From Acidobacteria bacterium Ga0077522 (lineage in GTDB: Bacteria > Acidobacteriota > Vicinamibacteria > Vicinamibacterales > Vicinamibacteraceae): 46,554 bases of DNA. The position numbers and the translations under genes were made by a program. The notes under the pieces are model-generated. The model saw only the letters and a list, made by a program, of their open reading frames with translations. It had not been told where the DNA came from and did not search any database. Positions 10,899-43,051 of this stretch are shown in pieces. The stretch's first letter is position 1. Each line of letters opens with the position of its first letter. Where the stretch lies: NCBI GenBank assembly GCA_001464065.1, contig LNDN01000035.1, positions 1-46,554 of the forward strand. Direction: 5' to 3'.

Positions 10899-11960
10899 GT
10901 GTCGACGATCCTCGTGACCGGTGGCGCCGGTTTCATCGGCGCCAACTTCATCCACTACTGGCTGGCACGGCGAGAGGGACGCGTCGTCAATCTCGACAAG
11001 CTGACGTACGCCGGCAATCCCGAGAATCTCGCCGTCCACCAGGGCAGCCCCCGGCATGAACTGGTGCGCGGCGACATCGGCGATCGCGCACTGGTGGCGC
11101 GCCTGCTCGTCACCCACAAGCCGGTCGCGGTGGTCAACTTCGCCGCCGAGAGTCACGTCGACCGGTCGATCACCGGGCCCGCCGCCTTCGTCGAGACCAA
11201 TCTGGTCGGCACGTTCGGGCTGCTGGACGAAGTCAAGGCCTACTGGAGCACGCTCGACGGCGAGGCGCGCTCGGCGTTCCGTTTCCTCCACGTCTCGACC
11301 GATGAGGTCTACGGGTCGCTCGGTCCCGGCGACGCCGCCTTCTCCGAGACGACGCCGTATGCGCCCAACAGCCCGTACTCGGCCTCGAAGGCCGGGTCGG
11401 ACCACCTCGTGCGGGCCTATCACCACACCTACGGCCTGCCGGTCCTGACGACCAACTGCTCGAACAACTACGGGCCGTACCAGTTTCCCGAGAAGCTGAT
11501 TCCGCTCGTCATCCACAACGCGCTGGCCGGCAAGCCGCTGCCCATCTACGGCGACGGCAAGAACGTGCGTGACTGGTTGTACGTCGAGGATCACTGCTCG
11601 GCGATCGCGCGGGTGCTGGACGCCGGGCGGCCCGGCGAGACCTACAACGTCGGTGGCAACAGCGAGCAGCAGAACATCGCCGTCGTCCACACGCTCTGCG
11701 ACGTGCTCGACGAACTGGCGCCTCGTGCCACGGGCCGCTACAAGGACCTCATCACCTACGTGAGGGATCGCCCCGGGCACGACCGCCGGTACGCGATCGA
11801 TCCGACGAAGATTCGGACGGAGCTCGCCTGGGAGCCCGCTCACACCTTCGAGAGCGGGATGCGCCAGACGGTGCAGTGGTACCTCGCGCACCAGGACTGG
11901 GTGCAACGCGTGACGTCGGGGGCCTACCGCGAGTGGGTCACCAGCCAGTACGGACACTGA
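10899..11960 (+). CDS. rfbB: dTDP-glucose 4,6-dehydratase
   Basis: A 353-residue short-chain dehydrogenase/reductase that makes dTDP-4-keto-6-deoxyglucose, a precursor of dTDP-rhamnose and other deoxysugars of surface glycans. The NAD-binding motif is [11 protein letters not shown]. The active site has [10 protein letters not shown] and the YxxxK pair in [30 protein letters not shown] and [17 protein letters not shown] are typical RmlB sequences. The GTG start lies 1 bp after nuoN. The other rml genes are not in this window. Confidence 0.94.
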
Positions 11961-12042
11961 CCGCACATGACACGCCGCACGTAGAACGCAGCACGCACAG
12001 CACGCCGCAGCACGGGGCGTCGTACGCAGGACGTCGAACAGC
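11961..12042 (+). repeat. Intergenic GCACG-rich low-complexity repeat
   Basis: The 82-bp gap between rfbB and the GH15-like gene is built largely of variants of a 9-11 bp unit around GCAGCACG (for example cgcagcacg, cacagcacg, cgcagcacg). No terminator or promoter is obvious. It may be a decayed tandem repeat. Confidence 0.4.
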
Positions 12043-15000
12043 ATGGACACGACGCGGTTACGGACGACGCTGGACGCCTACTACCGTGAAGTCGCGTCCC
12101 TGATCCTCGACAAGCAGCATCCGGTCACGGGGCTGCTCCCCGCCAGCACCGCGGTGACCATCCACGGCGACTATCGCGACGCCTGGGTCCGCGACAACGT
12201 CTACAGCATCCTCGCCGTCTGGGGCCTCGCGCTCGCCTACCGATCGCTCGACGACGACGGCGGGCGCGGCTACGAACTCGAGCACCGCACCGTGCACCTG
12301 ATGCGCGGCCTGCTGCGTTCGATGATGGCGCAGGCCGGCAAGGTCGAGGCATTCAAGTACAGCCGCGATCCCGCCGATGCCCTGCACGCCAAGTACGACA
12401 CGGAGACCGGCGCGCCGGTGGTCAGCGACACCGGCTGGGGGCACCTGCAGATCGACGCGACATCGCTCTACCTGCTGATGCTGACGCAGATGATCACCTC
12501 CGGGCTCTCGGTGATCTGGACGCGCGACGAGGTCAACTTCATCCAGAACCTCGTGTACTACATCGAGCGGGCCTACCGGACGCCCGACTACGGCATCTGG
12601 GAGCGCGGCGACAAGCACAACCGCGGCAAGGTCGAGATCAACGCCAGTTCGGTCGGCATGGCCAAGGCCGCGCTCGAGGCCCTGGCCGGGTTCAACCTCT
12701 TCGGATCACGCGGCGCCCAGGAGTCGGTCGTCCACGTCGTCCCGGACAACATCGCGCAGGCGAACCTGACCCTGCTGTCGATCCTGCCCAGGGAGTCCAC
12801 CACCAAGGAGACCGACGCCGCGCTGCTGTCGATCATCGGGTACCCGGCATTCGCCGTCCACGACCCGACGTTCGCGGCACGTGTGAGGGCCGAGGTGGTC
12901 AGCCGGCTCTCGGGTCGCTACGGCCTCAAGCGCTTCCTGCGCGACGGACATCAGACCGTGCTGGAGGATGAGGCCCGCCTGCACTACGAGCCGGAGGAGT
13001 TGCAGCAGTTCGCGCACATCGAGTCCGAGTGGCCGCTGTTCTTCACCTACCTGCTGCTCGACGCCCAGATGTGCGGCGACACGGCGGCGACCGAGACGTA
13101 CCTGTCGTGTCTGCGAGCGGTCGCCATCGAGCGCGACGGCCTCCACCTGCTTCCCGAGCTGTACTGGGTACCCGAGGATGCCATCGACGCCGAGCGCGCC
13201 TCGCCCGGATCCCAGCGTCGCCATCCGAACGACAACCTGCCGCTCGTGTGGGCGCAGAGTCTGTACCTGCTCGGTCGCATGCTCCACGACGGCGTGCTGC
13301 GGCCGAGCGACATCGACCCGTTGGGCCGTCGTCGTCATCGTGCGCCGTCGCCGCCCGTCGTGCAGGTGATGTGCCTGGCTGAAGACGCGGCACTGCAGAG
13401 CGAACTTGCCGAACACGGCGTCCTCACCGAGACAGCCGATGACATCGCACCGGTCGCCGTCTACCTGCCGCACGACATCGCCCTGGCCTACGGCGAGGTC
13501 GGCCGCAACGAGTCGCTGGGGTTGAGCGGACGGTCGGCGCGGGCCCTGAAGAGCCTCGCCACCAGCCGCCTCTACACGCTGCATGACCGCATCGGCGTCT
13601 GCCTGGCGTCGTTCTTCATGCAGCAGGAGTTCTTCCTCGCCTACGACCTCGACTTCCTGCTGCGGCGGTTCGAGAGCGAACTCGCGTACCTGCATCGCAA
13701 CTGGACGCTCTCGGGACGACCGACCGTGACGGTCCTGCTCACGCACACGCTGCTCGAAGCCGACCGGACGTCGTTCTACCGCTTCATGCGGCACATCGCC
13801 AGCGGCCGTGTCGGGGACGTGCCGGTCCGACGGGGGCGTCTCGCCGAGCTGATGCCGACCGCCAACGTCGAGCGCATCGACGATCTGCATGCCCTCGCGA
13901 TCTCCGAGGCCCCGCTGGCCTCGCGCATGGCCCGCTCGACCGTGCTGTCCGAGCCGGGGATGCAGCAGCCGCTCGATGCCACGGCGGAAATCGCCATCGA
14001 CACCACGGCCGATGCCGCGACGCTGCTCGCGCGCCTGGCAGGCACCGACAACCTCTACGAGCAGATCGAGCTGCTGGCGGCGCTGGCCCGCCTCCAGTCG
14101 CTCGATGCCGTCATCGCGATGCGCGGCCACACCGGCCCCGTGCGCGAGCTGATCGAAGAGGTGTACGAGCAGGCGGGACGTCGACGCATCTGGGCCATCA
14201 TGCGTCGCGCGGCGGGTCTGCTCGGCAAGGTCGATGGCGATCTGAACCTCGCCGTCGGCGCCATGCTCGTCCGACAGAAGCACATCCAGGTCGGACGCGC
14301 CTACAGCGATGAATCGCTCATCACGCAGCCCATCCCCGACCACGAGCTGCTGGCGAAGATCACCACCTTCTGTCGCGACGATGCACGCGATCGCGTCCTG
14401 ACGCAGGAGATCCTGCTGTACCTGGGCGTGCTGATCAAGGAACGCCCCGAGCTGTTCGGCGAGCTCCTGACGCTGCGGGTCAGTCACTTCATCCTGCTGC
14501 TCAGCAGCCAGATCGCGCGTGAGGAGGCGGTCTCGCCAGGCGAGGGCTACGACGCGCTCATGGCGCTGGCGCCCTCCATCGTGCAGCAGCGGCTGCAGAG
14601 CATGCTCGAGCAGTACCACGCCATCGAGGACCTGCCGCAGCAACTCGAACAGCTGCACGCGCAGGTGACGCGCGACGACCTCGACTGGAGCCAGGACCTC
14701 GGGTTCGAGACCCTGCGGACGCCATCCGAGGGCTGGCTGGCCTGGCGCCAGCACCGCGGCATCATCGACCGTCGCCCGGCGCACTTCTATGCCGACGTGT
14801 GGAACATCTTCCGCCATGCGCCGGCGCTGATCATCGGCGAGAAGCTCGAACGCCGGAACCGCATCGACAGCAGCGTCGTGCTCAGTGACATGACCCCCGG
14901 CGAGAAGGCGTTCGCCCTGTGGCTCGAACACCTGCTCAACAAGATCGCCGCCGCGGAGTATCGGCAGCTGAACATCGAATCCCTGAGCGTGCTGGCGAGC

Positions 15001-15234
15001 TTCTTCCGGCAGAACCCGACGCTCCGGATCGACGATGCGTGCGTGCTCGATGCGCTGATCGGCCACGCGGTGCGCCTCGCGTACCTCGAGAGCCACGCCG
15101 ACCGCGAGGCCACCTACAACGACTACAAGGCCGACGCCTGGGCGGCGTTCTACGCGAGTCCGCCGCTGCGCACCAGCCTGTTCCTGGTCACCGCGCTGCG
15201 CAGTCTCCTCAGGTTCGAAGTGGCCAGGGGCTGA
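12043..15234 (+). CDS. GH15-like protein related to phosphorylase kinase alpha/beta subunits
   Basis: A 1063-residue protein. Its first about 410 residues form a glucoamylase-like (GH15) alpha/alpha toroid of the type found in the regulatory alpha and beta subunits of eukaryotic phosphorylase b kinase. Diagnostic stretches are HGDYRDAWVRDNVYSILAVW (about 41-60), DTGWGHLQIDATSLYLL, RTPDYGIWERGDKHNRG (about 179-195), INASSVGMAKAALEAL, GRYGLKRFLRDGHQTVLED and HIESEWPLFFTYLLLD. E187 of GIWERGD matches the GH15 general acid; the general base is uncertain. The remaining about 650 residues are helical and also PhK-like in size. Bacterial homologues are annotated as GH15 proteins; the substrate is not known from sequence. 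There is no signal peptide, so it is probably cytosolic. Confidence 0.82.
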   Translation: MDTTRLRTTLDAYYREVASLILDKQHPVTGLLPASTAVTIHGDYRDAWVRDNVYSILAVWGLALAYRSLDDDGGRGYELEHRTVHLMRGLLRSMMAQAGKVEAFKYSRDPADALHAKYDTETGAPVVSDTGWGHLQIDATSLYLLMLTQMITSGLSVIWTRDEVNFIQNLVYYIERAYRTPDYGIWERGDKHNRGKVEINASSVGMAKAALEALAGFNLFGSRGAQESVVHVVPDNIAQANLTLLSILPRESTTKETDAALLSIIGYPAFAVHDPTFAARVRAEVVSRLSGRYGLKRFLRDGHQTVLEDEARLHYEPEELQQFAHIESEWPLFFTYLLLDAQMCGDTAATETYLSCLRAVAIERDGLHLLPELYWVPEDAIDAERASPGSQRRHPNDNLPLVWAQSLYLLGRMLHDGVLRPSDIDPLGRRRHRAPSPPVVQVMCLAEDAALQSELAEHGVLTETADDIAPVAVYLPHDIALAYGEVGRNESLGLSGRSARALKSLATSRLYTLHDRIGVCLASFFMQQEFFLAYDLDFLLRRFESELAYLHRNWTLSGRPTVTVLLTHTLLEADRTSFYRFMRHIASGRVGDVPVRRGRLAELMPTANVERIDDLHALAISEAPLASRMARSTVLSEPGMQQPLDATAEIAIDTTADAATLLARLAGTDNLYEQIELLAALARLQSLDAVIAMRGHTGPVRELIEEVYEQAGRRRIWAIMRRAAGLLGKVDGDLNLAVGAMLVRQKHIQVGRAYSDESLITQPIPDHELLAKITTFCRDDARDRVLTQEILLYLGVLIKERPELFGELLTLRVSHFILLLSSQIAREEAVSPGEGYDALMALAPSIVQQRLQSMLEQYHAIEDLPQQLEQLHAQVTRDDLDWSQDLGFETLRTPSEGWLAWRQHRGIIDRRPAHFYADVWNIFRHAPALIIGEKLERRNRIDSSVVLSDMTPGEKAFALWLEHLLNKIAAAEYRQLNIESLSVLASFFRQNPTLRIDDACVLDALIGHAVRLAYLESHADREATYNDYKADAWAAFYASPPLRTSLFLVTALRSLLRFEVARG

Positions 15235-15257
15235 ACCCTCGACGACCGCGGCGTCGG

Positions 15258-16724
15258 TCAGGGCGTCGGGCGCAGTTGCTGGCGCACCGCCGCGACCTGG
15301 CGCTTCTCGTCCGGGCCCTGGGCCACGCGGTCGGCGCGGGCCAGCGCGGCGTCGGTGGACGCGGCATCGCGAGCGTTGGCGGCCAACTGCGCCAGCATCA
15401 GGTAGTGGCGCGCGTTGCCGGGCTCCAGGGTGATGGCCTGGGTGATCAGGGAGACGCCGCGCGTCGTGTTGCCGTCCTGCGCCGCACGCACGACGCCGAG
15501 CAGCGAGAGCGCTCTGGCCAGGTCCGGCTTGAGTGCCAGCGCCCGCTCGAGCGCCGCGCTGACCTCGGCCAGTGGCGCGTCCGGCGCGCGCATCCTCAGC
15601 TCCGCCCAGCCGAAATGTGCGAGTGGATCCGACGATCCGACCGACACGGCCTGAGCCAGGGCCCGTTCGGTGGCGTCCAGGTCGCCGGCTCGTCGAGCGG
15701 CGCGAGCCTGTGCCATCCACGCCTCGCCGAGCGTGCGATCCGCCGCGACAGCCTCGGCGGCCAGTGTCGTGCCCGTGGCCCCATCGCCCACCATCGCCGC
15801 GACGGTCGCCTTGAGGGCCAGGACCTCGGCCGGCGACAGGGGCCGCGCCGGCGCGCCCTTGGCGGCGTCGCTCAACGGGACCCGGGCCTTCAGCGCCGGA
15901 AACTGGAAGCGGCCGATGTAGGCACGGAACTGCCGGTCGAAGGCGGCGACGTCGCCGAGGGCGCGTCGTGTGGCGTCGGCGGGTGTGGCACCGGCGTCGA
16001 GGGCCTCGAGCAGTGCCATCAGCCTCGGGCGATGCGCGCCGTTGTCGCCGAGCACGAGGAAGTGGGTCAGCGCCCAACTCTGTGCGTAGAACGTCGTGGC
16101 GCGATTGTCTTCGGTGTACTCCGGCGATCCGTGGTCGACGGCGAGCAGCCTCTCCAGCGACAGCAGGGACCGTTCCTGCAGCGCGGCCAGGTGGTAGTCG
16201 GCTGGCATGCCCAGGAGGACATCGTCGGTGTCGAGCCGGGCCTGGCTGTACATCTCGGCGAGTCCTTCGTTGAGCCACACCGGCGCGGCGCCGATGGTCT
16301 GGTGGACGAGCACGTGCATGTACTCGTGCCAGGCGATCTGGTAGCGCAGGTCACGGTCGAAATCGAGCCTGACGAGCACGAGATTGGCATCGGGGCCTGC
16401 GGCGAACAGGCCGCCGAGATCCTCGCGGTCCGAGTCGATCAGCGTGCGCAACTGCTTGCCATGCTGGATGGCGATGATCGTGAGCGGCACGTCGGTGCGC
16501 GTCGAGATCTTCGCGACCTGCTGCAACACGGCCGTCAGTCGTTCGAAGCTGGCCGCGACCTCGCGGCCCTGCCTGGCGTTGCCGTTGGTGATGACCCGGA
16601 AGTTCGGCGACCGCACCTCCGTCCACGTCTCTGCCGCGTCCACCGTCACCGCCACGGTCAGCACCGCGGCCACCGCTGCACACACCAGTCCACACACGCG
16701 TACTCGACTCACGCGACGACTCAC
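15258..16724 (-). CDS. Secreted metallopeptidase-like protein with TPR repeats (peptidase MA-like)
   Basis: A 488-residue protein with an N-terminal export signal (hydrophobic VCGLVCAAVAAVLTVAVTVDA, about residues 10-30). A zinc-peptidase-like domain carries HEYMHVLVHQ (HExxH) followed by WLNEGLAEMY, which supplies the third-ligand glutamate of a gluzincin. The C-terminal half (about 300-480) is made of TPR-like helical pairs. The start is GTG 16724 and no good SD is seen. It lies 45 bp downstream of selA on the same strand and converges with the GH15-like gene 23 bp away. The substrate is unknown. Confidence 0.75.
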   Translation of the reverse strand: MSRRVSRVRVCGLVCAAVAAVLTVAVTVDAAETWTEVRSPNFRVITNGNARQGREVAASFERLTAVLQQVAKISTRTDVPLTIIAIQHGKQLRTLIDSDREDLGGLFAAGPDANLVLVRLDFDRDLRYQIAWHEYMHVLVHQTIGAAPVWLNEGLAEMYSQARLDTDDVLLGMPADYHLAALQERSLLSLERLLAVDHGSPEYTEDNRATTFYAQSWALTHFLVLGDNGAHRPRLMALLEALDAGATPADATRRALGDVAAFDRQFRAYIGRFQFPALKARVPLSDAAKGAPARPLSPAEVLALKATVAAMVGDGATGTTLAAEAVAADRTLGEAWMAQARAARRAGDLDATERALAQAVSVGSSDPLAHFGWAELRMRAPDAPLAEVSAALERALALKPDLARALSLLGVVRAAQDGNTTRGVSLITQAITLEPGNARHYLMLAQLAANARDAASTDAALARADRVAQGPDEKRQVAAVRQQLRPTP

Positions 16725-16769
16725 ACTTTCTGGAGGGAGCCCGAGTGTGCCGGGCAGGGGCCCGTCTCG

Positions 16770-18188
16770 TCAAGGACGAGGGGCGCTCATGACGTCGCGC
16801 ACCGCACGGACCACCACGTCATCGTCGACCTCCGGCACGGTGCGGAGATCGAGACAGACGCGGTCGTCGACGATCCGCGCGATGAGCGGCGGGCGTCCCG
16901 CACGCAGGGCCGCGAGCACCCGATCGGGCGCGCCGGTGTCGAGGCGCACCAGGCGGGTCGACAGCGTCTCGCCCGGCAGGCTGCCGCCGCCGATCGTGGA
17001 GAGGCCCGCGGCGGTGTCGCACTCGACGCCGGAGGCTCGCAGCAGGTCGGCGAGTCGTGTCGCTCGCCGCGCGATGGCGTCCAGCGGCAGGGCGAGCATG
17101 CGGACCACCGGCACGGTCTCGGCGGCACGTCCGCTGGTGAAGGCGCGCAGGGTCGCCTCGAGGCCCGCGTACGTGATCTTGTCGACACGGACGGCGCGCA
17201 TCAGCGGGTGACGGCCGAGGCGTGCGATCAGATCGGCGCGTCCGACGACCAGGCCGGCCTGCGGGCCACCGAGCAGCTTGTCGGCGCTGAAGGCGACGAG
17301 ATCGGCGCCGTCCCGGATGCTGTCGCGCACGGCGGGCTCGCGGGCCAGCAGCAGGCGCGCCTCGGCGGGGAAGGCGTGTGTCGCGAACAGGTCGAGCCCC
17401 AGCCAGCCCGAGCCCTGGTCCTCGATCAGCGGGAGGGAGAACCGGCGCGCGAGGGCGGCGAGCTCGGCCAGCGCCGGCCGTTCCGTGAAGCCCTCCATGC
17501 GGAAGTTCGACGGGTGCACGCGCAGGATCGCGCCGGTGCGCTCGGAGATCGCCGCGCCGTAGTCCGCCACCCGTGTGCGATTGGTCGTGCCGACCTCGCG
17601 CAGTCGGGCGCCCGATCCCTGCAGGATCTCCGGGATGCGGAAGCCACCGCCGATCTCGACGAGCTCGCCGCGGCTCAGGATGACCTCTCGTCCCGCGGCG
17701 ATGGCCGCCAGCGTCAGGGTGAGACCGGCCGCCGTGTTGTTGGTGGCCACGCCCGCCTCGGCGCCGGTGGCCTCGCGCAGCGCGGTCGTCAGGTGCTGGT
17801 GGCGAGCACCGCGCTGCCCCGTGGCGAGGTCGAACTCCAGGGTGGAGTAGCCGGCGCCGACCCGCCGCATGGCGTCCAGCGCCTCTGGTGACAGCGGCGC
17901 CCGCCCGAGGTTGGTGTGGATGATCACGCCCGTCGCATTGATGACGGGCCGCAGCGACGACTCGCTCGTCTCCCCGAGGTGGTGCTGGAGCCGCTCGACG
18001 ATGAGCGCGCCCGCCGACTCGCGGGTGGCCGCGTCGGTCTGCCCGGCGACGAGGGCGGCGCGCAACCGGTCGACCTCCTCGTCGAGCGCCTGCCGCACGC
18101 GCCGAGGTCCGTGCGCCGCCGCCAGCGCCTGCACGGCCGGGAGCCCCAGCAGGTGATCGACGGCTGGAATGACGCGCGCCCGTGACAT
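16770..18188 (-). CDS. selA: L-seryl-tRNA(Sec) selenium transferase
   Basis: A 472-residue PLP enzyme that converts seryl-tRNA(Sec) to selenocysteyl-tRNA(Sec) using selenophosphate. Visible motifs are GVIIHTNLGRAPLS, ATNNTAAGLTLTLAAI, GTTNRTRVADY and SADKLLGGPQAGLVVG, with the PLP-binding lysine in the last. I place the start at ATG 18188 (MSRARVIPAVDHLLG), because the 39 residues upstream in frame are unlike the family. A TAGCAT hexamer 7 bp upstream of this ATG may be a -10 box. selB, selD and tRNA-Sec are not in the window. The organism probably makes selenoproteins. Confidence 0.92.
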   Translation of the reverse strand: MSRARVIPAVDHLLGLPAVQALAAAHGPRRVRQALDEEVDRLRAALVAGQTDAATRESAGALIVERLQHHLGETSESSLRPVINATGVIIHTNLGRAPLSPEALDAMRRVGAGYSTLEFDLATGQRGARHQHLTTALREATGAEAGVATNNTAAGLTLTLAAIAAGREVILSRGELVEIGGGFRIPEILQGSGARLREVGTTNRTRVADYGAAISERTGAILRVHPSNFRMEGFTERPALAELAALARRFSLPLIEDQGSGWLGLDLFATHAFPAEARLLLAREPAVRDSIRDGADLVAFSADKLLGGPQAGLVVGRADLIARLGRHPLMRAVRVDKITYAGLEATLRAFTSGRAAETVPVVRMLALPLDAIARRATRLADLLRASGVECDTAAGLSTIGGGSLPGETLSTRLVRLDTGAPDRVLAALRAGRPPLIARIVDDRVCLDLRTVPEVDDDVVVRAVRDVMSAPRP

Positions 18189-18279
18189 CGCCGCGATGCT
18201 ACCATTCCACCCGCGGGGCCCCTCCCGCGAGGGCCGGTCCATCTCGACCGCCCGTCGGGCCACCCGGCCGCTGCTGCGC

Positions 18280-18729
18280 ATGACCGACACGCCTGCCAAG
18301 ACCATCGCCGCCGACCGCCTCGCGGTCCTGCCGGATCACCAGCCGAAGGAACACTTCTGGCCGTACGTCGAGCTCACCGAGCAGCCGACGCCCGAAGAAC
18401 TCGCGGCGCTCGACCCGGACCTCCGGACGGCGCTCTACGGCGCCGCGGACATCCCGTTCTCGTTCACGCTGGTGTTTCCGCGCTTCGACGGTCCGGACTT
18501 CGAGGAGGCCTGCACCCTTGCCAGGGCCTCGGCGGAGTATCGCGAGGTGGGGACGGGCGACCAGTTCCGCATCCGCGCGCGCTTCTATCCCGCCGATGTC
18601 GCCCGCATGCGGGAGCTGTTCGTCATCGCCGGACGCTACCCGGGCTGTGAGGTCCTGGTAGACGATCGCCCGGTGCCGTTCGCGCGGGAGCTCTGGCTGC
18701 CGCTGACCTGGTTCCTCCTGCCGCGCTGA
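18280..18729 (+). CDS. Hypothetical protein
   Basis: A 149-residue protein that I do not recognise. It is soluble, with no signal peptide or membrane segment, and is rich in aromatic residues (PKEHFWPYVELTE, IPFSFTLVFPRFDGPDFEEA, ELWLPLTWFLLPR). I chose ATG 18280 (MTDTPAKTIAADRLAV). An upstream in-frame ATG at 18169 would overlap the start of divergent selA. The next gene begins 9 bp downstream on the same strand, so the two are probably an operon. The 91-bp gap to selA should hold both promoters. Confidence 0.6.
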   Translation: MTDTPAKTIAADRLAVLPDHQPKEHFWPYVELTEQPTPEELAALDPDLRTALYGAADIPFSFTLVFPRFDGPDFEEACTLARASAEYREVGTGDQFRIRARFYPADVARMRELFVIAGRYPGCEVLVDDRPVPFARELWLPLTWFLLPR

Positions 18730-39793: not shown

Positions 39794-41842
39794 CTAGTAC
39801 CCGAAGTGAAACATCAGCACCGTGGCTCGCAGCACCCCGAGCCACGCGAGGGCGAGCACCACGACGGTCAGGCCCGTCGCGGCGGCACCGAGGCGCTGTA
39901 CGACGCCAGTCGTCGTGCGCAGCCGCTCGAGGCCGGCGCCGACGAGCACGGCGGCCGGCGCGGTGAGCGGCAGGATGTGTCGGGGCGTCCAGTGCACGAC
40001 CATGTCGGCGCGCGGCACCAGATTGACCAGTCCCCACGCGGCCAGCCCGAGCACCACGCCGAGCGCGCACACCAGCATGACGCCGCTGGTATCCGGCGCG
40101 GCCGGGTCGCGATGGCGAGCACGCCAGAGGGAGGCCGCTGCAGCCAGGGTGCTCCACGTGGCCAGGGCCACCAGCAGCACTGACGCGGCAGCGTACGGCA
40201 GCCAGACCTTGCTGCCGGGAAACGGGCCGGCGCCGAGCGAGCCGAACCGCGCCCAGAACGGCTCGAACACCATCACGCGCATCTGTGCCCAGAACTCCGG
40301 CGTCCACGGCATCGGTCCCGCCGTCGGCACGAAGCCGCCGGCCTCGAGGACGGCCCGCTTGAAGGCGTGTGCCGACGGATCGCCGAACACCATCCAGGCG
40401 CGCACGTGGAGCCATGCGGCCGCGAGGACGATACCCGCACCGACGAGCAGCACGGGACGGAGCGCCGCGGCGAGGATGGCGACCGGTTCGCCGCCAGTCG
40501 ACGCACCCGTGCGCTCCTGCCCGGCGCGGCGCGCCGCCAGGAGGCACGCCAGGATGGCCATGGGGGCGAGGAAGACGGCCGTGGCCTTGACGGCATAGGC
40601 GGCGCCAATCAGCAGGCCGGTCAGCAGGAGCAGGCCGGTGGTGCCACGCCCGCGCGTCACGCGTGCGATCGCGAGGGTCGCTGCCGCGGCCAGCAGCGTG
40701 GCGGGCGGATCGGTCGAGACCGCGCCCATCACGGCGCACCACTGGGGGATGAGGCCGAGGCCGCCGGCGACCGTGGCGACGACCAGCGGGTCGCTGGTCA
40801 CGGTCGTGAGCAGCCTCGCGATGATCCAGGTCGTGGCCAGCGCCATGAGCAGGGACGCGAGACGCAGCACCCGCAGGGCTCGATGGCCCGTCGCCGGTTG
40901 CGGCGGACCTGCGTGCCAGAAGATCGAGGGCTCGGTCCCGCCCGCGTGCAGCCGCGAGCGTGGATTGAGCGTCACGGCGGGGCCCGGAGCCTCGAGCCCC
41001 GTGGCCTTCAGCAGGGCGGCAGCGCCGAGGTAGTACAGCGGCTGCTGCACGAACTCGTACGACGAGGCTCGCCACTCGGAGTCGTGCGCCGGCACCTCGC
41101 TGGGCAGCGAGCCAGTCGTGGCGACGAAGCGCGCGTACTGCAGATGGGCAAGTTCGTCGGGCGGCTCGAACGGTGGCACGACGAGCGTGTAGGCGACGAG
41201 CGTCGCGCCTGCGGCCATCACGGCCAGTGCGGTTGCGCCCCGCACGCCGAGCGCCGGCTGCGCCACCCCGAGGGCGCGAGCCAGCCACACCCCGGCGATC
41301 ATGATGGTGAAGGCCGACATCCACATCACCGTCAGCACGAGCAGCAGGCCCGGCGTCGTCGCGCCCCCGTCGAGCGCACAGCCAAGGCTGCCGAGCCGCG
41401 TGGCAAACCTGGGCACCAGTGTCATCGGACGTCGTGCGTCGAGCGACAGGATGCCACCGGCGTCTCTGAGCCTGACCACCAGGGGAGCGCGCCAGGGCGG
41501 CGTCACGTTGCCAAGGGGGATGGCGATCGGTGCGCCAGTTACCGCCACGACGCTCGTGGTGCCGACGCGTTGCGCGGAGCCGTCGGGGGCGGCGACGAAG
41601 AACTCGGCGTCGATGCGGCCGTCAGCGGCGCCTGACGGGTGCAAGACGACCGCATCGATGTCGCAGGCCGGCAGAAAGAGCGTGGCATCACGTGGCGTCG
41701 CGTCGAACGCGATGGCCGCCGCGCCCCACGAGGCCCGGCCACGGGGATCCACCTCGCGCAGGCTGCGCAGTGTCGAGAGGGCCGCACCGAACACCACGAG
41801 CCAGAGCAGCAAGTTCAGGCCCAGGCGTGCTGCGCTCCGCAT
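39794..41842 (-). CDS. Polytopic membrane protein, DUF2142-type (glycosyltransferase-like)
   Basis: A 682-residue membrane protein with about 11-12 hydrophobic helices and a large extracytoplasmic beta-rich domain near the N-terminus (about 45-150). The motif VVPPFEPPDELAHLQYARF followed by YEFVQQPLYYLGAAALL is typical of DUF2142 and related GT-C glycosyltransferases that use lipid-linked sugars. The acceptor is unknown; a surface-glycan role is inferred. I use ATG 41842 because AAGG lies about 9 bp upstream. An ATG at 41866 is also possible. It is the only leftward gene within an otherwise rightward core cluster. Confidence 0.75.
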   Translation of the reverse strand: MRSAARLGLNLLLWLVVFGAALSTLRSLREVDPRGRASWGAAAIAFDATPRDATLFLPACDIDAVVLHPSGAADGRIDAEFFVAAPDGSAQRVGTTSVVAVTGAPIAIPLGNVTPPWRAPLVVRLRDAGGILSLDARRPMTLVPRFATRLGSLGCALDGGATTPGLLLVLTVMWMSAFTIMIAGVWLARALGVAQPALGVRGATALAVMAAGATLVAYTLVVPPFEPPDELAHLQYARFVATTGSLPSEVPAHDSEWRASSYEFVQQPLYYLGAAALLKATGLEAPGPAVTLNPRSRLHAGGTEPSIFWHAGPPQPATGHRALRVLRLASLLMALATTWIIARLLTTVTSDPLVVATVAGGLGLIPQWCAVMGAVSTDPPATLLAAAATLAIARVTRGRGTTGLLLLTGLLIGAAYAVKATAVFLAPMAILACLLAARRAGQERTGASTGGEPVAILAAALRPVLLVGAGIVLAAAWLHVRAWMVFGDPSAHAFKRAVLEAGGFVPTAGPMPWTPEFWAQMRVMVFEPFWARFGSLGAGPFPGSKVWLPYAAASVLLVALATWSTLAAAASLWRARHRDPAAPDTSGVMLVCALGVVLGLAAWGLVNLVPRADMVVHWTPRHILPLTAPAAVLVGAGLERLRTTTGVVQRLGAAATGLTVVVLALAWLGVLRATVLMFHFGY

Positions 41843-41878
41843 GGCGGTGTACCTTACCACTCGCATGGGGCGGACTTC

Positions 41879-43051
41879 GTGATCGTGGATGTCGTGGTGG
41901 CCGCCGGTGGGCAGGGGCGTCGGCTCGGCGGAGCCGTGGCCAAGCAGTGGCTGTCGCTGGGCGACCGGACCATCTTCGAGCGGAGTGTCGCGGCGTGCGC
42001 GGCGTCATCGCGCGTTCGCGGCGTGGTGGCCGTGGTGCCCGCTGCAGACCTCGAGGCGGCACGCGTACTGGCCGCGGCGGCCGCTGGCAGCAAGCTGATC
42101 GCCGTCGTGGCGGGGGGCGAGCGACGGCAGGATTCCGTGGCGGCCGGATTGCGTGCCGTGCCGCACGACGCGCACGTAGTCCTCGTGCATGACGCGGCAC
42201 GACCGTTCGTCACCGACGGCATCATCGGCCGCGTCATCGACGCCGCGGCGCACGGGGGCGCGGCCATCGCCGCGGCGCGCGTGCACGACACCGTGAAGCA
42301 CATCGCCTGCGAAGACGGCCAGCGATGGATCGACGGCACGATCCCGCGTGACGAACTCGCGCTGGCGCAGACGCCCCAGGGGTTTCGGCGGGACGTGCTC
42401 GACGCCATGCTGCCCGTGATGACGTCCGCGGTGGACGTCACCGACGAGGCCTCGCTCGCCGAACATCTCGGCCATCGTGTCGAGGTCGTGGACGGGCATC
42501 CCGACAACGTCAAGATCACGACCGAAGACGACCTCGTGCGCGCGCGCCGTGCCCTCGGGAACGACGGCGCTCACGGTGCCGCCACCATGCGAATCGGGCT
42601 GGGCTACGACTCGCACCGGTTCGCCGACGGTCGACGGCTCGTCGTCGGCGGCGTCCACGTGCCCGACCAGGCCGGGCTGGCCGGCCATTCGGACGGCGAC
42701 GCGGTGTGTCATGCGATCACGGACGCCGTGCTCGGCGCCGCCGGCCTCGGCGATGTCGGCGGGCTGTTCCCCGATACCGATCCGGCCTGGAAGGATGCCG
42801 ACAGCCTCGCCCTGCTGCGCGACGCGTTCGCACGCGTGCGCGCTGCCGGGTGGCGCCTGGGCAACCTCGACCTGGTCGTCATCTGCCACCGCCCGAAGAT
42901 CGGCCGGATCGCGGACGCCTTGCGCGCATCCCTCGCCGGCGCGCTCGACACCACGCCGGACCGCATCAGCGTGAAGGGCAAGACGCCCGAGGGCACCGCG
43001 GCCCTCGAAGACGCGATGATCGTCCACGCCGTGGCGCTGCTGGAGCGCTGA
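41879..43051 (+). CDS. ispDF: Bifunctional IspD-IspF (CDP-ME synthase / MECDP synthase)
   Basis: A 390-residue natural fusion. Residues 1 to about 230 are IspD (AAGGQGRRLGGAVAKQWLSL, VHDAARPFV, AQTPQGFRRDVL), which makes CDP-methylerythritol. Residues from about 237 are IspF (MRIGLGYDSHRFADGRRLVV, GHSDGDAVCHAITDAVLGAA, SVKGKTPEGTAALEDAMIVH), which cyclises the product of IspE. The reading frame is continuous through the joint. The start is GTG 41879; an in-frame GTG at 41885 is also possible. gltX follows after 20 bp. Confidence 0.95.
   Translation: MIVDVVVAAGGQGRRLGGAVAKQWLSLGDRTIFERSVAACAASSRVRGVVAVVPAADLEAARVLAAAAAGSKLIAVVAGGERRQDSVAAGLRAVPHDAHVVLVHDAARPFVTDGIIGRVIDAAAHGGAAIAAARVHDTVKHIACEDGQRWIDGTIPRDELALAQTPQGFRRDVLDAMLPVMTSAVDVTDEASLAEHLGHRVEVVDGHPDNVKITTEDDLVRARRALGNDGAHGAATMRIGLGYDSHRFADGRRLVVGGVHVPDQAGLAGHSDGDAVCHAITDAVLGAAGLGDVGGLFPDTDPAWKDADSLALLRDAFARVRAAGWRLGNLDLVVICHRPKIGRIADALRASLAGALDTTPDRISVKGKTPEGTAALEDAMIVHAVALLER

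Follow-up and report, generated by a model that had tools for sequence, protein, structure and literature searches.

We found a gene for a bacterial homologue of the α and β regulatory subunits of phosphorylase kinase (PhK) in the window, the whole stretch of 46,554 nucleotides analysed here (Table 1). Phosphorylase kinase was among the first protein kinases described. The role of its glucoamylase-like domains is stated to be unresolved (PMC10978961). The window protein is a homologue of the PhK subunits and not itself a PhK subunit, since it has neither the CaaX end nor the two inserts of the human α subunit and no kinase partner was seen. Its conserved active site and the operons of its distant relatives suggest that it is probably a cytosolic exo-α-glucan (maltodextrin or glycogen) hydrolase and not a kinase subunit. 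The observation of a PhK-like bacterial gene in the initial annotation is confirmed, and its interpretation as a whole is partly supported.

A full-length homologue of the PhK subunits

The combination of a GH15 domain with a KPBB_C domain is already known. Two Pfam families covering this architecture recognise bacterial sequences, and the window gene thus belongs to a known family. Its product matches PF00723 (GH15) with an E-value of 9.3e-81 (272 bits against a cut-off of 22), followed by PF19292 (KPBB_C, the phosphorylase b kinase C-terminal domain) with 9.8e-86 (287 bits, residues 826-1059). A genus-mate (G125) encodes an 85% identical protein at the same genomic position, indicating that the ORF is real, and a weak Shine-Dalgarno-like CAGGA was read by eye on its 5' side. 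No signal peptide was seen by eye in the protein, so it is likely cytosolic.

Table 1. Features of the PhK-like gene and of its insertion site (positions in the window)
Feature	Position	Strand	Basis or remark
CDS, PhK α/β-like GH15 + KPBB_C protein, 1063 aa	12043..15234	+	ATG 12043, stop 15232-15234
D1, GH15 (α/α)6 toroid domain (predicted), residues ~1-430	12043..13332	+	Pfam, structure comparison, column invariance
Codons V49-R50-D51-N52 (human α, VRDN)	12187..12198	+	Alignment
Codons W186-E187-R188; E187, putative general acid	12598..12606	+	Human α E185
Codons P371-E372; E372, putative general base	13153..13158	+	Human α E371, Lys in human β
Codon E384, invariant, present in PhK β too	13192..13194	+	Alignment
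D2-D4 equivalents, residues ~431-825	13333..14517	+	Model aligned to PhK α
KPBB_C domain, residues 826-1059	14518..15219	+	Pfam
Segment without counterpart in G298, G299 and sister genus G300	11954..16848		Holds PhK-like gene and 15258-16724 gene

In phmmer searches of the PDB up to E=10, the protein matched only human PHKA1 (3.4e-208) and PHKB (1e-175). A profile of 25 family members retrieved both PhK subunits plus two matches due to chance, and ordinary GH15 proteins were absent from the PDB matches even with this profile. The window protein is 48.7% identical to PHKA1 over 606 columns (D1-D2) and 37.0% identical to PHKB over 833 columns, while PHKA1 and PHKB are 42.0% identical to each other. 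The near-identical blocks pointed out in the initial annotation are correct: RTPDYGIWERGDK of the window protein corresponds to human KTADFGIWERGDK, and INASSVGMAKAALEA to human LNASSVGMAKAALEA.

We built an AlphaFold2 model from 33 family sequences (mean pLDDT 80, pTM 0.74), in which pLDDT falls below 50 at residues 179-198 (the acid loop) and 292-328. D1 is predicted to be an (α/α)6 toroid fold. Eight PhK α/β chains rank first in Foldseek, with about 1,080 alignment columns. In VIA-align, the model superposes on PhK α with a Z-score of 42.9 over 772 residues (up to residue 862) at 3.0 Å, and on PhK β with a Z-score of 41.5. A longer alignment with PhK reaches residue 1061 (937 residues) at an rmsd of 13.7 Å, with domain shifts. 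The best neighbours besides PhK are GH15 glycosidases (5z3a-e, Z 28) and glucoamylases (Z about 22). The PhK matches outscore those of GH15 and extend further, and the likeness to PhK is therefore well beyond that of a generic toroid. An ordinary GH15 fold alone, the outcome that would have spoken against the initial annotation, was thus not what the model gave (PhK α Z 42.9 vs about 28 for ordinary GH15), and the resemblance that it had noted over the GH15 domain and beyond is full-length homology by phmmer, profile and structure.

A putative glucoamylase-type active site and glycogen-operon relatives

Glu185 and Glu371 form the catalytic pair of human D1-α, whereas D1-β lacks some of the catalytic residues (PMC10978961). 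We aligned 112 bacterial homologues with the human α/β pair (114 sequences) and equated the acid/base pair of the window protein with that of glucoamylase via human α. On this alignment, E187 and E372 (in LPELY) are the predicted glucoamylase-type acid and base. Both glutamates occur in every one of the 112 bacterial members, which span several phyla, and in human α; human β alone has a Lys at the base position. W48, R50, D51, W132, H134, D138, W186, R188 and W403 are likewise kept in 112/112 bacteria, and we take R50 and D51 to correspond to R54 and D55 of glucoamylase. The general acid had been called correctly from the sequence at the outset. The base had been sought, as one candidate, in E384, and that role is taken by E372. 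E384 is invariant in 114/114 sequences, including human β, which has no catalytic base, and is therefore no marker of catalysis. Conservation is concentrated in D1, where 28% of the columns are invariant, compared to 2-4% in the other three segments (55 representative bacterial members).

The operon context of distant family members is the strongest functional clue. The PhK-like gene is directly followed by glgB and a glgX-type gene in four genomes (L167-L170), and it follows glgB, glgX and malQ in five others (L173-L176, L186); these nine operons belong to two orders of Pseudomonadota. It also occurs as glk-eda-PhK-like-malQ-malK in one genome (L184), and as the last gene of zwf-edd-glk-eda-PhK-like in two (L183, L185). 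The association with glucokinase is consistent with an enzymatic activity that liberates free glucose. At L177:2-3610 (+ strand), in an ORF that starts at the edge of its contig, MalQ (GH77) is fused in a single frame to a divergent GH15-KPBB_C domain, with GH97 and GH13 genes next to it. The glg, mal and glk arrangements lie in separate lineages of the tree. No conserved glycogen neighbour was found at L171, L172 or at the Paraglaciecola, cyanobacterial or window loci. We also looked for a neighbour shared across the window, Paraglaciecola and cyanobacterial loci and found none, most of the apparent shared clusters being shadow ORFs on the antisense strand of the gene.

From these features we infer catalysis, the substrate, the product, the role of D2-D5 and the equivalence of the window copy to the operon members. 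The product would be a cytosolic, inverting, exo-acting α-glucosidase of the GH15-KPBB_C family. Its D1 toroid would bind the non-reducing end of a maltodextrin or glycogen chain; E187 would then act as the general acid and E372 would activate water, releasing glucose for uptake by glucokinase. D2-D5 may be a scaffold or an oligomerisation module. Such a hydrolase could work beside MalQ/GlgX-type glucan enzymes with no need of a kinase. The window genome encodes two MalQ proteins and a short-type glucan phosphorylase (GT35, 47 bits), and therefore has α-glucan metabolism. Glycogen phosphorylase as an obligate partner is not supported, as the short-type GT35 is the only one in the window genome, while other carriers have the classic type.

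The main rival is a non-catalytic sensor of glucans or oligosaccharides, in which D1 would bind an α-glucan end and D2-D5 would signal to a kinase or glycogen enzyme, as PhK α/β may do. The PhK holoenzyme and the α-γ-δ subcomplex are inactive on maltose, isomaltose and glycogen (PMC10978961). Human α is thus inactive in vitro with both glutamates in place, so an intact pair is suggestive of catalysis but not proof of it. D2-D5, which a plain glucoamylase does not need, are also retained throughout the family. However, a sensor would be expected to have lost the base in some lineages, as human β has, and both glutamates are kept in 112/112 bacteria. Moreover, none of the scanned contexts showed a Ser/Thr kinase as a neighbour, and the natural fusion partner, MalQ, is an enzyme. 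Both the operons and the pattern of conservation speak for an enzyme, and we regard a sensor as unlikely. It is less likely still that the protein is an active GH15 enzyme with another substrate or reaction (α-1,6-glucan, trehalose or transglucosylation). GH15 is broad in function, the structural neighbours of the model include dextran dextrinase and glucodextranase, and there is a weak NCBIfam match to an archaeal GH15 trehalase (1e-6, far under its cut-off). The operon partners glgB, glgX, malQ and malK, on the other hand, are glycogen/maltodextrin enzymes and not trehalose or dextran genes.

Overall, an exo-acting glucan hydrolase is suggested by the catalytic pair in 112/112 bacteria, the constraint on D1, the operons and the fusion, the GH15 structural neighbours, the lack of the CaaX end and of the inserts, and the MalQ and phosphorylase genes of the window genome. 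It is opposed by the inactivity of human PhK with the pair, the window, Paraglaciecola and cyanobacterial copies without a glycogen neighbour, and the low pLDDT of the acid loop.

Probable horizontal gain and patchy distribution

The window gene is probably a copy gained by horizontal transfer. The flanks of the segment that carries it are only 175 bp apart in genus-mate G298 and 444 bp apart in genus-mate G299. The flanking genes are likewise close in sister genus G300, with no PhK-like gene between them. Thus, the segment 11954-16848 is an insertion relative to the genus-mates and the sister genus, repeated clean loss being less parsimonious. Genus-mate G125 carries the PhK-like gene between a dTDP-sugar-type gene and selA, as in the window. 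A Polyangiaceae MAG encodes an 80% identical homologue, whereas its NuoN is only 45% identical to that of the window, compared to 66-69% for the sister genus. In the search for plasmid carriage, the only matches were weak ones to two E. coli records, at 25% and limited to a fragment.

The gene before the PhK-like CDS (10899-11960) encodes an SDR of the GDP-mannose/dTDP-glucose dehydratase type by Pfam. The adjoining dTDP-sugar gene mentioned in the initial annotation is thus present, but it flanks the insertion and carries no functional meaning: the PhK-like gene sits in an insertion whose site is empty in relatives, and so this neighbour is no evidence of function. A functional link to dTDP-sugar or nuo genes was ruled out by the empty-site comparison and by the different context at locus L004. 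No glycogen or kinase gene, and no gene for a γ kinase or calmodulin δ subunit, was found among the window ORFs scanned with Pfam (most, not all), in agreement with what had been read from the sequence. A peptidase-MA/TPR gene (15258-16724, - strand) lies inside the same insertion relative to the genus-mates. In G125, nothing detectably matches most of this gene, which therefore seems to have been gained or lost separately. On the downstream side, the site is bounded by a complete selA (selenocysteine synthase) gene at 16770-18305 (- strand). Elsewhere in the window, 41639-43051 (+ strand) encodes an IspD-IspF fusion protein of the MEP pathway.

Homologues are common in cyanobacteria and patchy elsewhere. 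KPBB_C over the cut-off was found in 59 of the 244 sampled cyanobacterial genomes, and the control genome of Synechococcus elongatus has a family member too. Only 2 of 297 sampled genomes in the window's phylum have the domain, both of the window's genus (2/7 in its taxonomic family). The corresponding numbers for the phyla to which the Anaerolineae and Rhodothermia carriers belong are 1/251 and 1/247, each being the seed genome, and for the phylum of Paraglaciecola 7/349. A contig scan found 377 relatives; the 80 that were retained are from cyanobacteria, from Paraglaciecola with its kin, and from one representative each of the Polyangiaceae (a MAG), Anaerolineae and Rhodothermia. Several cyanobacteria with small genomes of 2.3-3.0 Mb (L178-L182) have a long-branched, distinct version of the protein, 41-43% identical to that of the window, with a WecG-type transferase, TGT and a GFO/IDH/MocA oxidoreductase among its conserved neighbours. 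One cyanobacterial genome (G507) has two family copies, L144 (G507:C57) and L096 (G507:C20), a possible parallel to the eukaryotic α/β duplication.

Origin of the PhK subunits and comparison with known systems

We inferred a tree from D1-D2 (615 columns, LG+C20+F+G4), with no outgroup root and with human PHKA1 and PHKB as the only eukaryotic sequences. The window protein groups with those of the genus-mate, the Polyangiaceae MAG, Paraglaciecola, Rhodothermia and Anaerolineae (100/100). The human pair, on long branches, falls inside the cyanobacteria (98/96). A Nostoc protein scores 827 and 730 bits against PHKA1 and PHKB, compared to 697 and 590 for the window protein. In AU tests run without PHKB and without the MalQ fusion, PHKA1 outside the cyanobacteria plus the window clade was rejected (p-AU 0.002), PHKA1 joined to the window clade was borderline (p 0.056), and the cyanobacteria as a single clade excluding PHKA1 were not rejected (p 0.149). 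The tree, bit scores and AU tests together support the cyanobacterial proteins, and not the window clade, as the probable closest relatives of the human subunits; nesting of the human pair within the cyanobacteria is favoured but not significant, given the p-value of 0.149. Thus, the phylogeny proposed at the outset does bear on the origin of PhK, but the nearest bacterial relatives appear to be cyanobacterial and not the window clade.

The complete active site and the distant cousins among glycogen genes suggest that the human subunits probably derive from a bacterial glycogen-trimming enzyme. A fuller scenario is quite possible, although we stop short of calling it probable: a cytosolic glycogen/maltodextrin exo-hydrolase of glg/mal operons was taken by eukaryotes from the cyanobacterial lineage and duplicated, and its active site was made into the glucan-sensing scaffold of the kinase, α keeping the pocket and β losing the base. 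In our main reading, the window's genus gained the gene horizontally, and eukaryotic PhK α/β are later co-opted relatives. Alternatively, bacteria might have obtained the gene from a eukaryotic PhK subunit, as the patchiness outside cyanobacteria could suggest. This is very improbable, because several deep bacterial lineages lie outside the clade holding the human pair, the pair is within the cyanobacteria in the best tree (root not fixed, two eukaryotic sequences), and the AU test rejects PHKA1 outside the cyanobacteria and window clade.

Our literature search, mostly of papers outside subscription, yielded no characterisation of a bacterial GH15-KPBB_C protein, and likewise no description of the linkage to glg/mal operons, of a fusion with MalQ or of a catalytic pair kept throughout the bacterial members. 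The abstract of a Synechococcus WH8102 proteomics study names a 'glycogen phosphorylase kinase', but its text cites glycogen phosphorylase instead. The glycogen-operon linkage is a useful lead. Free-standing bacterial homologues with the full pair and glycogen-operon neighbours offer a simple expressible system for asking whether this fold has enzymatic activity, which substrate it would cleave and what purpose D2-D5 serve when no kinase is present. Should the homologues prove active, they would reveal the state of the PhK subunits before their regulatory role.

The likeness to human PHKA1/PHKB (8jfk and related) is homology over nearly the whole chain, with the same domain order, GH15 followed by KPBB_C. 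Human α has the same catalytic pair as the window protein, whereas human β has lost the base. C-terminal CaaX farnesylation is reported for human α and β (PMC10978961); in contrast, the window protein ends in LLRFEVARG, and a C-x-x-x end occurs in 0/112 bacterial members. The long inserts of human α (611-761 and 962-1054; roughly 100 and 50 residues) are missing, the corresponding window spacings being 607-656 and 855-898. No γ or δ partner was seen, and the window has a single gene where human PhK has an α/β pair. Bacterial GH15 glycosidases and fungal glucoamylases (5z3a-e, 3eqa, 6frv) share the D1 toroid fold; they match over D1 only, at 14-17% structural identity, with no PDB sequence match. 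The Pseudomonadota operon homologues (L167-L170, L173-L177, L183-L186) belong to the same family, with 37-44% full-length identity among the members aligned and the same catalytic pair. They lie within glgB/glgX/malQ or glk/eda operons, or in one case in a MalQ fusion, whereas the window copy is solitary. The cyanobacterial GH15-KPBB_C proteins (for example, that of Nostoc linckia, L042) share length, architecture and catalytic residues with the window protein at about 52% identity, but form a clade of their own, nearer to human α/β than the window protein is.
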